From NCBI RefSeq assembly GCF_000427685.1, contig NZ_KE386573.1, forward strand, positions 186,001 through 250,000: 64,000 nt of DNA. Reading direction: 5' to 3'. The notes below the pieces were generated by a model. The model was not told where the DNA came from and did no database searches. It was given only the letters and a program-made list of their open reading frames with translations. The DNA is from Haloplanus natans DSM 17983. Lineage in GTDB: Archaea; Halobacteriota; Halobacteria; Halobacteriales; Haloferacaceae. Shown piece by piece: positions 30,196-33,766 of the stretch. A program made the translations under genes and the position numbers. The first letter of the stretch is position 1. Every line of letters begins with the position of its first letter.

Positions 30196-30253
30196 CCGAC
30201 GAGGCGTCGGGACGATGATAACGCTTAACACCGTTTCCCGATTACGTGGGTCG

Positions 30254-32077
30254 ATGTCATCGCCCGGACGGCGCGACGTGATTCGGGTCGACCTTTCGGC
30301 GGGCACCGTCGTCCGCGAACGCGTCCCCGACGACTGGCGACGTGACTTTCTGGGGGGCAAGGGCCTCGGCGCCCGCTACCTCTACGACGAGCTCGACGCG
30401 GGGATCGACCCGCTCGGCCCCGACAACCGCCTCGCCTTCTTCGTCGGGCCGCTCTCGGGCTATCTCCCCGCCGAGTCGCGCTACGCCGCCGTCACCAAAT
30501 CGCCGCTGACCGGCGCCTTCCTCGATTCCTACAGCGGCGGCTCCTTCGCGGACGCCCTCGCCGTCGCGCTCCCCGACGCGTTCGGCCTGCTCGTCCAGGG
30601 GGCGGCCGACGAACCGGTGCGACTCACCGTCGCGGACGGCGAGGCGGCGCTCCGGCCGGCGGACGATCTGTGGGGGGCCGACGCGGCCGCCGTCGACGAC
30701 GCCCTCGACGGGGCCGTCGCCTGTATCGGCCCCGCCGGCGAGAACGAGGTGGCGTACGCGACGATCGCTTCCGACGGCGGCGACCACCACGCCGGCCGGG
30801 GCGGCGCCGGGGCCGTGATGGGCGCCAAGCGGCTGAAAGCCGTCGTCGTCCACGGCGACTCGCCCGAACCGACGCCGGAACTCGCCGAACTCCGGCAGCG
30901 GTACGACGACGCCTACCGCGACGACGACACCGGCCGCTGGCAGGCCGCCGGCGAGACGGTCGAGAGCGTCGACTTCGCCAACGAGGTTGGCGTCCTTTCC
31001 ACCCGCGGCTGGCAGGCCGGCACGTTCGACGACGCCGCCGATATCGGCGTCGAGGCGGTTCGCGAGGCGTCGACGGGCCGGGAGAACGAGAGCGACGCGG
31101 TGCCCGGCGGCTTCCGTGTCGAGGCCGCGGACGGCGAGTCGGAGTCGGTGCCACGGGGCGGCGCCCTCATGTCGCTCGGCGCCGGCCTCGGGGTCGACGA
31201 CTTCGACGACGTGGCCCGTCTCGGAGCCACCTGTGATCTGCTGGGGATGGACGCCATCAGCGCCGGCAACGCCGTCGCGTGGGCGATGCGGGCGGCGGAC
31301 GCCGACGCTGTCGACTTCGAGGTCGCTGACCTCGCGTTCGGCGACGCCGACGCCGCCGAGGCGTTGCTGACGGCCATCGCCGCCCGCTCGACGACCCTCG
31401 GCGATACGCTCGCCGACGGCGTCGACGCCGCCCGCGAGCGCTACGGCGCCGGGACGGTGCCGACGGTGAAGTCGATGGAGCTTCCGGCCTACGATCCCCG
31501 CGGCGCCGCGGGGATGGCGCTCGCGTACGCCACCAGCGACCGTGGCGGCTGTCACCGCCGCGCCCGGCCGGTCGAGCGCGAGGCGTTCGCCCGCGACGAG
31601 TGGACGACCGCCGACCGCGTCGCTACCGTCGTGGGCGCACAGAACGTCCGCTCGACGCTCTGGAGCCTCGTCGTCGACGACTTCGCCGGCGAGACCATGT
31701 GGGAGGACCTCGGCGCCGAGTGGCTGTCGGCCGTCGGCCTCGACTACGACCGCGACTCGCTGGCGACGCTCGGCGAACGCGTCTGGACGCTCGTCCGCCT
31801 GTTCAACGTCCGCGAGGGCTTTGCCCGCGCGGACGACTCCCTGCCCGAACTGTTCGAAGACCCGCTCCCCGACGGCCCGGCCGCCGGCCGCACCGTCGAC
31901 CGCGAGGCGTTCGATGCCATGCTCGACGCCTACTACGCCGCCCGTGGCTGGTCGCCCGACGGCCGCCCCACGGCCGAGACGGTCGATCGGCTTGGGCTCA
32001 CCGCGGTCGTCGACGACCAAACGCCACTCGGCGCGGCGGCCGCCCGGACCGATTCCGACTCCGACCACACTCCGTGA
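30254..32077 (+). CDS. AOR-family protein lacking three Fe-S ligand cysteines
   Basis: 607 residues with the aldehyde ferredoxin oxidoreductase layout: LGGKGLGARYLYDEL, GPLSGYLPAESRYAAVTKSP, IGPAGENEVAYA, GRGGAGAVMGAKRLKAVVV and a C-terminal catalytic domain (SMELPAYDPRGAAGMALAYA). The AOR [4Fe-4S] cluster normally uses a CxxCxxxC motif plus a distant Cys. Here the motif region has no Cys (STGRENESDAVPGGFRV), and only the distal one remains (Cys433 in GGCHRR). The pterin-binding motifs persist. It could be a cluster-free or non-redox paralogue. The intact family member is at 56359. A GTGA overlap joins it to a zinc-ribbon gene. Confidence 0.85.
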   Translation: MSSPGRRDVIRVDLSAGTVVRERVPDDWRRDFLGGKGLGARYLYDELDAGIDPLGPDNRLAFFVGPLSGYLPAESRYAAVTKSPLTGAFLDSYSGGSFADALAVALPDAFGLLVQGAADEPVRLTVADGEAALRPADDLWGADAAAVDDALDGAVACIGPAGENEVAYATIASDGGDHHAGRGGAGAVMGAKRLKAVVVHGDSPEPTPELAELRQRYDDAYRDDDTGRWQAAGETVESVDFANEVGVLSTRGWQAGTFDDAADIGVEAVREASTGRENESDAVPGGFRVEAADGESESVPRGGALMSLGAGLGVDDFDDVARLGATCDLLGMDAISAGNAVAWAMRAADADAVDFEVADLAFGDADAAEALLTAIAARSTTLGDTLADGVDAARERYGAGTVPTVKSMELPAYDPRGAAGMALAYATSDRGGCHRRARPVEREAFARDEWTTADRVATVVGAQNVRSTLWSLVVDDFAGETMWEDLGAEWLSAVGLDYDRDSLATLGERVWTLVRLFNVREGFARADDSLPELFEDPLPDGPAAGRTVDREAFDAMLDAYYAARGWSPDGRPTAETVDRLGLTAVVDDQTPLGAAAARTDSDSDHTP

Positions 32078-32253
32078 CCGACCGCGACACGCCCGCTTCG
32101 AACCCTTCGCGCCCCCACGACTGTTACCGGTGTGGCGCGACCATCGATCCCGGTCACGTCTACGGCGCCCTCGATCTGCTCGACGCCGACGGCGACCTGC
32201 GGGTGCTGCTCTGTCGCTCCTGTTCGGCCGAGTTGCGCGCGTTTCTGGACTGA
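32074..32253 (+). CDS. 59-residue zinc-ribbon protein coupled to the AOR-like gene
   Basis: It starts at GTG 32074 inside the AOR-like stop (GTGA overlap), a strong sign of translational coupling. It carries two CxxC knuckles, CYRCG and CRSC, about 30 residues apart with a GHVYGALDLLDADGDLRVLL hairpin between them. This is a typical four-cysteine zinc ribbon. The stop TGA (32251-32253) is the first three bases of palindromic element copy C. Its role is unknown; it may be a chaperone or partner of the AOR-like protein. Confidence 0.72.
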   Translation: MTDRDTPASNPSRPHDCYRCGATIDPGHVYGALDLLDADGDLRVLLCRSCSAELRAFLD

Positions 32254-32410: not shown

Positions 32411-32797
32411 ATGGACGAGTTCGACCTCGGCGTTCCCACGCAGATTCTGGAATCGCTCCCCGACGAGGACGAGGCGGCCCGGCAGGATATGCAGCGAGCT
32501 GTCGCCGGCCTCGAAGCGCGGCTGAACGAGGGCGTCGCCGCCGCGGACGACGAACGCGAGGCGGCCCAGACCGTCGTCGGCGCGCTCGAACGCCTCGAAG
32601 ACCAGCTCGAACAGTACGACGAGTTCGTCCCCGAACTCCGGGCGTGGGGACAGTCGCCCATCTACGCCATCGCGTGGCGCAACCTGCAGGCGGACCTCAT
32701 CATGCAGATCCAGGAGGTCGGCTGGGTCGCCGAGCGCATCGATCAGGAGCGCAACTACCGGACCGTCGAGGACGGCATCCGACTCCGCGATCGGTAG
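32411..32797 (+). CDS. Helical/coiled-coil haloarchaeal protein, unknown function
   Basis: 128 residues, acidic. The N-terminal MDEFDLGVPTQILESLPDED is followed by long helices with heptad character (AARQDMQRAVAGLEARLNEG; AAQTVVGALERLEDQLEQYD). A conserved-looking stretch is WGQSPIYAIAWRNLQADLIM, and the end is ERNYRTVEDGIRLRDR. No enzyme motif. It leads a run of four same-strand genes that includes the SAMP/MoaD-like modifier at 32845 (47-nt gap). I do not recognise a named family. Confidence 0.65.
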   Translation: MDEFDLGVPTQILESLPDEDEAARQDMQRAVAGLEARLNEGVAAADDEREAAQTVVGALERLEDQLEQYDEFVPELRAWGQSPIYAIAWRNLQADLIMQIQEVGWVAERIDQERNYRTVEDGIRLRDR

Positions 32798-32844
32798 GGT
32801 GCGCTGTCGCGTTCCTTTTTACGCTCGCGCTCCGAACGGGTGGC

Positions 32845-33129
32845 ATGGATCTGCAACTACGATTTTTCGCGACGTTCCGCGAAGCAGTCGGCCAGAAGAC
32901 CCTCGATCACGAGTTCGAGGACGGTGCGACCGTCGGGGAAATCCTCCGCACCCTCGAATCGAAGTACGACGGGCTCGAAGGACAACTGCTCGACGACCAG
33001 GGCGATCTGCAGCCGAATCTAAATATCCTGAAAAACGGTCGGGAAGTACTGCATATGGACGGAACCGAGACGGTGATGGCGGACGGGGACACGCTGTCCA
33101 TCTTCCCGCCGGTGGCTGGAGGGGCATGA
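32845..33129 (+). CDS. Ubiquitin-like small archaeal modifier / MoaD-family protein (SAMP3-like)
   Basis: 94 residues with the beta-grasp MoaD/SAMP pattern: QLRFFATFREAVGQKTLDHEF, GATVGEILRTLESKYDGLEG, NLNILKNGREVLHMDG and DGDTLSIFPPVAGG. The sequence resembles Haloferax SAMP3, which is activated at its C-terminal diglycine and attached to lysines. Here one extra residue follows the diglycine (GGA-stop), because the stop overlaps the next start (GCATGA). The mature form may therefore need trimming, or the protein may work differently. It lies in a four-gene run. Confidence 0.87.
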   Translation: MDLQLRFFATFREAVGQKTLDHEFEDGATVGEILRTLESKYDGLEGQLLDDQGDLQPNLNILKNGREVLHMDGTETVMADGDTLSIFPPVAGGA

Positions 33130-33398
33130 CGGCCGACGAGTGGGTCCACCGGGAACGCTCCTTTCGCGGTATCTCCACGCGGCTGGCGGTCAAGTATCTC
33201 GAAACCCTCGGTGCCGAGCGAGTCGACGACGACCGGGTCGAAGCCGAGGACTGGGCGGCCGACCTCGCCGAGCAGACGGTGACCGTCGGTCCGTCGGTGT
33301 CGCTGACGCAGGTCGATCTGGTCTTCGAGGGCGACCCCGAGACCCTCGACCCGCTCATCGAACGGTTCGCCCGGAAGGCGATGCGCGCCGGGGGCTGA
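33126..33398 (+). CDS. Protein of unknown function coupled to the SAMP-like gene
   Basis: 90 residues, ATG 33126 overlapping the SAMP-like stop (ATGA). It reads WVHRERSFRGISTRLAVKYL, ETLGAERVDDDRVEAEDWAA, and ends in an amphipathic tail (LDPLIERFARKAMRAGG). A small alpha/beta protein without obvious catalytic residues. It too ends in Gly-Gly, the form seen in ubiquitin-like modifiers, but the rest does not show the beta-grasp signature. Tight coupling suggests joint action with the modifier. Confidence 0.68.
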   Translation: MTADEWVHRERSFRGISTRLAVKYLETLGAERVDDDRVEAEDWAADLAEQTVTVGPSVSLTQVDLVFEGDPETLDPLIERFARKAMRAGG

Positions 33399-33400
33399 TC

Positions 33401-33766
33401 GTGTCCGGCGTGCCGAACTCACCGATCGACGGTCAGGTGTTCATGCTCGCCGCCGCGAAGGCGAGTGTCGACCCACAGACGCTCACGGAGCTTCTGGGAC
33501 GCACCCAGGATCATCTCGACGGCCGACGCGACACCTACCGCCGCGAGTTCGAGCGCGTCGCCGAGAGCGACGGCCGCGAGGTGTTTCTCGTCCCGACGGG
33601 GCACTGGGAAACCATCGGCGACCGACTCGGGTTCAGCGAGCGCGAACGGAAGGCGGTCGCGCGAACCCACGCGGAACAGCTCCGGCGACTCGGCTCCGAG
33701 GCCGGCCGCGACGAGGAGTTCGAGACGGCCCTGGAGATTCGCGAAGCCGTCGTCATCGGCGGCTGA
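33401..33766 (+). CDS. Protein of unknown function downstream of the SAMP-like cluster
   Basis: 121 residues from GTG 33401, two bases after the preceding stop. It reads SPIDGQVFMLAAAKASVDPQ, TLTELLGRTQDHLDGRRDTY, VFLVPTGHWETIGDRLGFSE and ends EIREAVVIGG. A mostly helical, charged protein. Notably it also ends with Gly-Gly. The stop is followed by TGATACGG-like sequence reminiscent of the palindromic element end, but no second arm is convincing. No known family. Confidence 0.65.
   Translation: MSGVPNSPIDGQVFMLAAAKASVDPQTLTELLGRTQDHLDGRRDTYRREFERVAESDGREVFLVPTGHWETIGDRLGFSERERKAVARTHAEQLRRLGSEAGRDEEFETALEIREAVVIGG

Follow-up and report, generated by a model that had tools for sequence, protein, structure and literature searches.

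Gene organization of the SAMP3 locus

The window, i.e. the whole stretch of 64,000 nucleotides analysed here, belongs to the 3.8-Mb genome of the haloarchaeon Haloplanus natans DSM 17983 (contig NZ_KE386573.1, positions 186,001 to 250,000). An aldehyde ferredoxin oxidoreductase of the tungsten-enzyme family (AOR, 30215..32077, start codon uncertain; Pfam AFOR_C 310 bits, AFOR_N 217 bits) is followed, all on the plus strand, by four open reading frames encoding proteins of 128, 94, 90 and 121 aa, each found where the first-pass annotation of this DNA had placed it. P1 (32411..32797, ORF reading) is a 128-aa conserved haloarchaeal protein of unassigned role. The 94-aa product (32845..33129), treated below as a SAMP3 orthologue, belongs to the beta-grasp ThiS/MoaD family and ends with FPPVAGG plus one Ala. 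P90 (33126..33398), a TBP-like protein of 90 aa that fits the description of arCOG06308, ends with KAMRAGG; next to it, P121 (33401..33766, 121 aa) has a GTG start and ends with VVIGG. Homologues of azlC and azlD are found downstream, in the window after P121 and a response-regulator/PAS gene. Positions 32074-32253 of the window also encode a small zinc-ribbon-like protein (~59 aa, containing two CxxC pairs), whose apparent GTG start overlaps the AOR stop.

The SAMP3 gene ends with GTG GCT GGA GGG GCA TGA, its last Gly codon (33121-33123) being followed by the extra Ala codon (33124-33126; 33121..33126 for the pair). The TGA (33127-33129) sits within the ATGA (33126..33129) that opens the P90 gene at 33126. 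The same overlap is found in relatives and suggests that SAMP3 and P90 are translationally coupled. T-rich TATA-like stretches precede both P1, where CCTTTTACC was read upstream of the ATG in the window, and SAMP3, where such a stretch is located ~25 nt before the gene and recurs in 11/11 congeneric relatives as CTTTT(T/C)A or TTTTTTA. Since both genes are preceded by such stretches, P1 may be transcribed separately from SAMP3-P90-P121.

Identification of the SAMP3 gene

The 94-aa product carries a beta-grasp ThiS/MoaD domain (Pfam ThiS 58.7 bits, cut-off 22.5) and scores above the cut-offs of NCBIfam NF041918 (109.5, cut-off 60) and moaD_arch (76.2, cut-off 49.5). NF041918 carries the name SAMP1, so that a match to it does not distinguish between SAMP1 and SAMP3. 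The nearest solved chain is 2m19 (123 bits versus 49 bits for SAMP1 chains), which we take to be HVO_2177 of Haloferax volcanii. The Haloferax gene that has the same neighbours and lies just downstream of a Sph3-like gene encodes a protein one residue off 2m19 (read by eye at locus L102). HVO_2177 is SAMP3 (PMC4500146). A separate SAMP1-like gene is present elsewhere in the genome of the window. Since 2m19 far outscores the SAMP1 chains, the neighbours are shared with Haloferax and a SAMP1-like gene exists separately, the 94-aa product is, by its sequence, an orthologue of SAMP3 and not SAMP1. The SAMP3-like identity initially assigned to it is thus borne out.

SAMP3 of Haloferax volcanii (HVO_2177) is likewise a beta-grasp protein with an FPPVAGG end, and P90, P121 and azlC/azlD genes are adjacent in both species. 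However, it ends exactly at GG (5/5 loci) whereas the SAMP3 of the window adds one Ala, and it has sph3 upstream whereas the window has AOR and the 128-aa gene. As encoded, the SAMP3 of the window ends with GGA and has no free C-terminal diglycine unless it is trimmed. Its genome carries one ThiF-family (UbaA-like) gene over cut-off, and UbaA-like and MoaE genes are both present in the one Haloplanus genome examined. In the literature searched, we found no mention of HVO_2178; the neighbour of HVO_2177 was reportedly once tested as a modifier candidate.

Conservation of the neighbourhood

The comparison of haloarchaeal loci covered the best 80 of 158; they were retrieved with two scan patterns, one of which contained KAMRAG. 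In this sample, P121 occurs together with P90 in 76/80 loci and a SAMP3-like gene is found on the same strand in 74/80. The examined stretches near the cluster also encode P1 (57/80), AOR (49/80), azlC (42/80), azlD (15/80) and a Sph3 homologue (5/80). In the 49 loci concerned, AOR is mostly on the opposite strand, kilobases off. The link with AOR suggests a relation to pterin-cofactor metabolism. In Natrinema zhouii (L043 4724-5925) and Natronococcus sp. A-GB1, azlC/azlD are inserted between SAMP3 and P90. In Haloarcula japonica, the stretch between SAMP3 and the P1 gene encodes a protein ending with FPFIFCC (L065 5047-5473, minus strand). Judged by description, it is akin to arCOG00539, a family of CC-ended beta-grasp proteins mentioned in PMC2948915.

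The first-pass annotation had suggested that cell-shape genes lie near the SAMP3 locus of Haloferax. This is true (PMC10869688), and Haloferax contributes all five loci with a Sph3 homologue; the window has no such homologue, and a general link to cell shape was rejected given the 5/80 count. P1 was rejected as DdfA by position alone: its Haloferax homologue (66% identical) is located away from the SAMP3 locus. The same annotation had noted three products ending in or near GG. All three do so in the window, and the GG is conserved in SAMP3 and P90, but P121 ends with GG in 2/76 relatives from these loci, so that its GG was rejected as a signal.

Residues after the diglycine

Comparison of the C-termini in relatives confirms that the residue after the diglycine is real and not strain-specific. 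In the genus Haloplanus, 10/12 SAMP3s have one residue after GG (Ala in eight, Thr in two) and 2/12 end at GG. The first-pass annotation attributed the extra residue to the overlap between the stop and the next ATG, an explanation that had to be dropped: all 12 congeneric SAMP3 genes share the ATGA overlap, and two of them (L009 and L010) keep it while stopping exactly at GG, with GGA as last Gly codon.

Of the loci compared (best 80 of 158), 50 have a SAMP3 that stops right at GG, 18 have one with a tail of 1-27 variable residues and six have one fused in frame to P90, so that a tail or a fusion is found in 24/80. The six other loci have no SAMP3 in the examined stretch, which may reflect truncation in two short ones (L049, L052). 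Letters and lengths of the tails vary even within one genus, as in the Halobellus loci. Tails are found in 17/33 unfused SAMP3s adjoining P90 versus 1/35 distant ones in this sample (Fisher p 3.6e-6, uncorrected for kinship); since the 16 others among the 33 are tail-free, the tail is not needed.

Tails are not restricted to SAMP3. SAMP1, which has no overlapping P90, is tailed in 11/12 genomes of the genus versus 4/18 outside it. In this count, one SAMP1 missed by the pattern (L178) ends at GG by eye, and L189 was counted as tailed. At the latter locus (G072:C1), the frame runs >100 residues past GG, as a real fusion or a chance open frame. In Haloferax, molybdopterin synthase depends on SAMP1 having a free Gly at its C-terminus. 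The SAMP1-like protein encoded by the genome of the window (G000:C7:2727009-2727287, minus strand; loci L002 and L163) ends with VSGGRA. Two further MoaD-like proteins of this genome also have residues after GG, namely 21 residues and a single Ser (L003 and L004; G000:C7:866406 and 384895). A common reading of SAMP3 and SAMP1 is that whatever follows GG is little constrained, as would be expected of residues that are removed.

SAMP3-P90 fusions

SAMP3 and P90 form a single frame in about eight distinct genomes, belonging to Halostella and a few other lineages, three pairs of fused entries being probable duplicates (L046 and G372, L072 and G091, L058 and G041). In Halostella, the fusion is found in 4/5 genomes, with 76-79% identity and a linker without start codon (internal starts were checked in the Halostella copies). 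On the tree, the fused state needs four changes, of which well-supported branches force one. Hence, there may have been an ancestral fusion with later splits or several origins. Given the chemistry of activation of ubiquitin-like proteins (Ubl), a fused SAMP3 presents no free GG until it is cut.

Fold, family and C-terminus of P90

The first-pass annotation had left the 128-, 90- and 121-residue products as unknowns. Of these, P90 was matched to a described family and to a solved fold. P1 reaches the cut-off of none of the Pfam and NCBIfam families, and the P121 model, although confident, has no clear match in the PDB (best Foldseek E 0.77; VIA Z 4.6), a result that is evidence neither for a new fold nor for a difference. 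P90, too, reaches none of the Pfam and NCBIfam cut-offs. However, its predicted model (pLDDT 92.6, confident) clearly matches the fold of the C-terminal domain of 1V8C, a MoaD-related protein of Thermus thermophilus (residues 82-165; Foldseek E 5.6e-5, TM 0.76; VIA Z 11.9 and rmsd 2.9 for 84 aligned residues, the next chain having a Z of 8.8). 1V8C was missed when the PDB was searched with P90 by sequence and by profile; these searches hit a designed protein, with E-values of 0.0014 and 0.0037. The cut-off of DUF1952 (PF09189) is not reached, as 1/27 P90 members matches at E 0.009 and 0/294 genomes score over cut-off. DUF5376 weakly matches 16/27 P90 members, below cut-off (best E 0.0042).

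The parallel with Thermus extends to the whole fusion. The Halostella SAMP3-P90 protein aligns to residues 4 to 167 of 1V8C (E 7.5e-14, much of it given by the MoaD part). In 1V8C, a MoaD domain ending with VAGG precedes a TBP-like domain of the P90 kind (DUF1952), so that the content and order of domains agree with SAMP3-P90, and the C-terminus (AASRGGG) is Gly-rich like that of P90. In contrast, 1V8C is bacterial, forms one chain in the crystal entry and shares ~24% identity, P90 remaining below the Pfam cut-off for DUF1952.

Homologues of P90 were found in 39/294 genomes of the phylum, all in the family or order of the window. Makarova and Koonin (2010, PMC2948915) described arCOG06308 as TBP-like proteins with a GG end that are confined to Halobacteria and have a MoaD-like protein and two small proteins as neighbours. 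The fold, C-terminal GG, haloarchaeal range and neighbours of P90 are alike, and we assigned it to this arCOG by description. In the part of that account available to us, we met no mention of SAMP tails, of SAMP3-P90 fusions or of the Thermus homologue. The P90 family, its neighbourhood and the idea of a Ubl-type activity are thus already known from this source.

P90 ends with RAGG in 80/80 of the best 80 of 158 loci, a count that is partly selected because the pattern contained KAMRAG. In an unselected, independent homology search, RAGG is immediately followed by the stop in 30/30 loci. In the survey of RAPG and RAGG ends (30 loci, of which two were unread), RAPG was read in 9/9 readable divergent P90 paralogues without SAMP3 beside them and RAGG in the 19 SAMP3-adjacent copies. 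The genome of the window encodes a second P90 copy that is 77% identical and ends with RAGG (L193, G000:C7:1763936-1764196), with no SAMP3, P1, P121 or AOR in 16 kb. A tie between extra P90 copies and these genes was rejected: none of the four was found in nine 16-kb regions from eight genomes. In a separate read-out by pattern, three of nine regions gave no output.

Candidate trimming enzymes

The genome of the window encodes two Prok-JAB (PF14464) proteins over cut-off, both with a JAMM motif recognized by eye (motif as quoted in PMC8832034). Hence, residues after GG and JAMM genes occur in the same genome, as for JAMM-processed Ubl precursors. JAMM genes were found in 26/26 genomes tested, each of which has a tail on SAMP3 or SAMP1 or a SAMP3 fusion (two handles, G372 and G374, gave identical matches); since such genes are widespread in the order and the survey covered these genomes only, their presence does not discriminate.

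Enzymes of this type are known to make such cuts. HvJAMM1 acts on SAMP1 fused to MoaE, cutting exactly after Gly (PMC4443979), and CsJAMM cleaves Caldiarchaeum SAMP precursors (PMC6043591). Furthermore, MoaX of Mycobacterium tuberculosis works only once cut after its GG (PMC4326299). As in these systems and in CsUb processed by CsRpn11, residues or a domain that would need removal follow the GG of SAMP3. Here, however, the fused partner is the TBP-like P90 instead of MoaE, and the processing is predicted. The diglycine of SAMP1 is dispensable for cleavage by HvJAMM1 in vitro (PMC8832034), so that the specificity of HvJAMM1 for this site is unsettled and claims about the choice of the site must be tempered.

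Discussion

The first-pass annotation predicted that a protease such as a JAMM enzyme trims this SAMP3. This prediction is supported by comparison of genomes, in that SAMP1 is tailed in 11/12 genomes of the genus, tails vary and JAMM genes are present, and by analogy, since JAMMs that make such a cut have been published (PMC4443979, PMC6043591). Trimming of SAMP3 before use is well supported by these comparisons and by enzymes of other species, and it probably takes place. We propose that SAMP3 would be made as a precursor with one residue after the diglycine, translationally coupled to P90. An HvJAMM1-like metalloprotease (JAMM/MPN+) would then cut after the second Gly, thereby freeing the carboxylate for adenylation by the E1-like UbaA, and mature SAMP3 would be conjugated to proteins, which in Haloferax include MoaE. 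With trimming at hand, whatever follows GG could vary freely and fusion to P90 would be allowed, a single cut of the fusion releasing both SAMP3 with a free GG and P90. P90 is taken in this scheme as a partner of SAMP3 in a regulation related to molybdo- or tungstopterin. We give a probability of roughly two in three to this explanation as a whole, from the tailed precursor to the P90 partner. Some tailed SAMP3s may be inactive, other SAMPs being encoded in the genome. To our knowledge, no pro-form of SAMP3 has been reported in Haloferax.

Among the competing explanations, the least improbable is that SAMP3 acts as a sulphur-carrying MoaD for the tungstopterin of the neighbouring AOR, whose maturation would be aided by P1, P90 and P121. 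AOR is indeed directly upstream in the window and present in the examined stretch of 49/80 loci (best 80 of 158), a linkage between MoaD and AOR has been noted in archaea (PMC2948915) and the Thermus homologue carries the name MoaD-related. However, the position of AOR relative to the cluster is not fixed, given its mostly opposite strand and its distance of kilobases, and in Haloferax, DMSO reductase does without SAMP3, which does not substitute for SAMP1 either (PMC4443979); we consider this role possible but doubtful. The trailing residue could also be tolerated decay, the SAMP3 of this genus being unconjugated, or acting only non-covalently, and left untrimmed. The lack of conservation of the tails and the other SAMPs of the genome agree with this, but the VAGG motif and the beta-grasp domain are conserved ahead of the tail, UbaA-like and MoaE genes are retained in the one genome examined, and SAMP1, the MoaD of Haloferax, is tailed as well in 11/12 genomes of the genus. 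Decay is thus quite improbable. As for the idea that three GG ends merely occur by chance in a Gly-rich, GC-rich genome, we accept it for P121 on its count of 2/76. It is refuted for SAMP3, in which GG is in the expected place in all 74 loci, and for P90, with RAGG in 80/80 (both in the best 80 of 158), so that chance as an explanation of all three ends is hardly credible.

The GG end of P90 leads to another explanation, in which P90 would itself be a modifier without beta-grasp fold whose C-terminal GG serves for activation, so that both the cluster and the fusion would encode two modifiers. RAGG with an immediate stop in 80/80 (best 80 of 158) and 30/30 loci is in line with this, and RAPG in the divergent paralogues suggests that GG is not needed for the fold. 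Moreover, the Thermus homologue ends with RGGG, and a Ubl-type activity was proposed for TBP-like GG proteins by Makarova and Koonin (PMC2948915). Against this stand the partly selected 80/80 count, the RAGG kept without SAMP3 in the examined stretch of 6/80 of these loci, and the RAGG kept in recent duplicates from three genomes with no cluster genes in 16 kb. In addition, the last helix of the predicted model (71-88) leaves two Gly residues beyond it, i.e. little tail for the active site of an E1. Ubiquitin-like proteins have a long flexible tail past the last secondary structure, which this model lacks. A modifier role of P90 is therefore unlikely, and slightly more so the view of SAMP3-P90 as a two-modifier unit from which one JAMM cut would yield two GG-ended proteins, a beta-grasp SAMP and a TBP-like modifier. 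If true, two unrelated folds would share one activation chemistry and the fusion would be a prokaryotic counterpart of the eukaryotic ubiquitin fusion precursors. The double-GG layout itself also exists in the bacterium Thermus.

The components and the chemistry of the trimming that we favour are known; as far as the literature searched shows, itself seen in part, the tailed and naturally fused SAMP3s and the parallel with Thermus are new. If trimming of SAMP3 is right, the maturation of archaeal Ubl modifiers would include routine trimming, beyond the removal of modifiers from substrates, and the natural SAMP3 fusions offer a direct test of it. Furthermore, the GG of P90, which is lost in divergent paralogues and paralleled in Thermus, makes a fifteen-year-old proposal of a non-beta-grasp modifier testable. 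Haloferax, where the P90 gene adjoins samp3, would be well suited to such a test.
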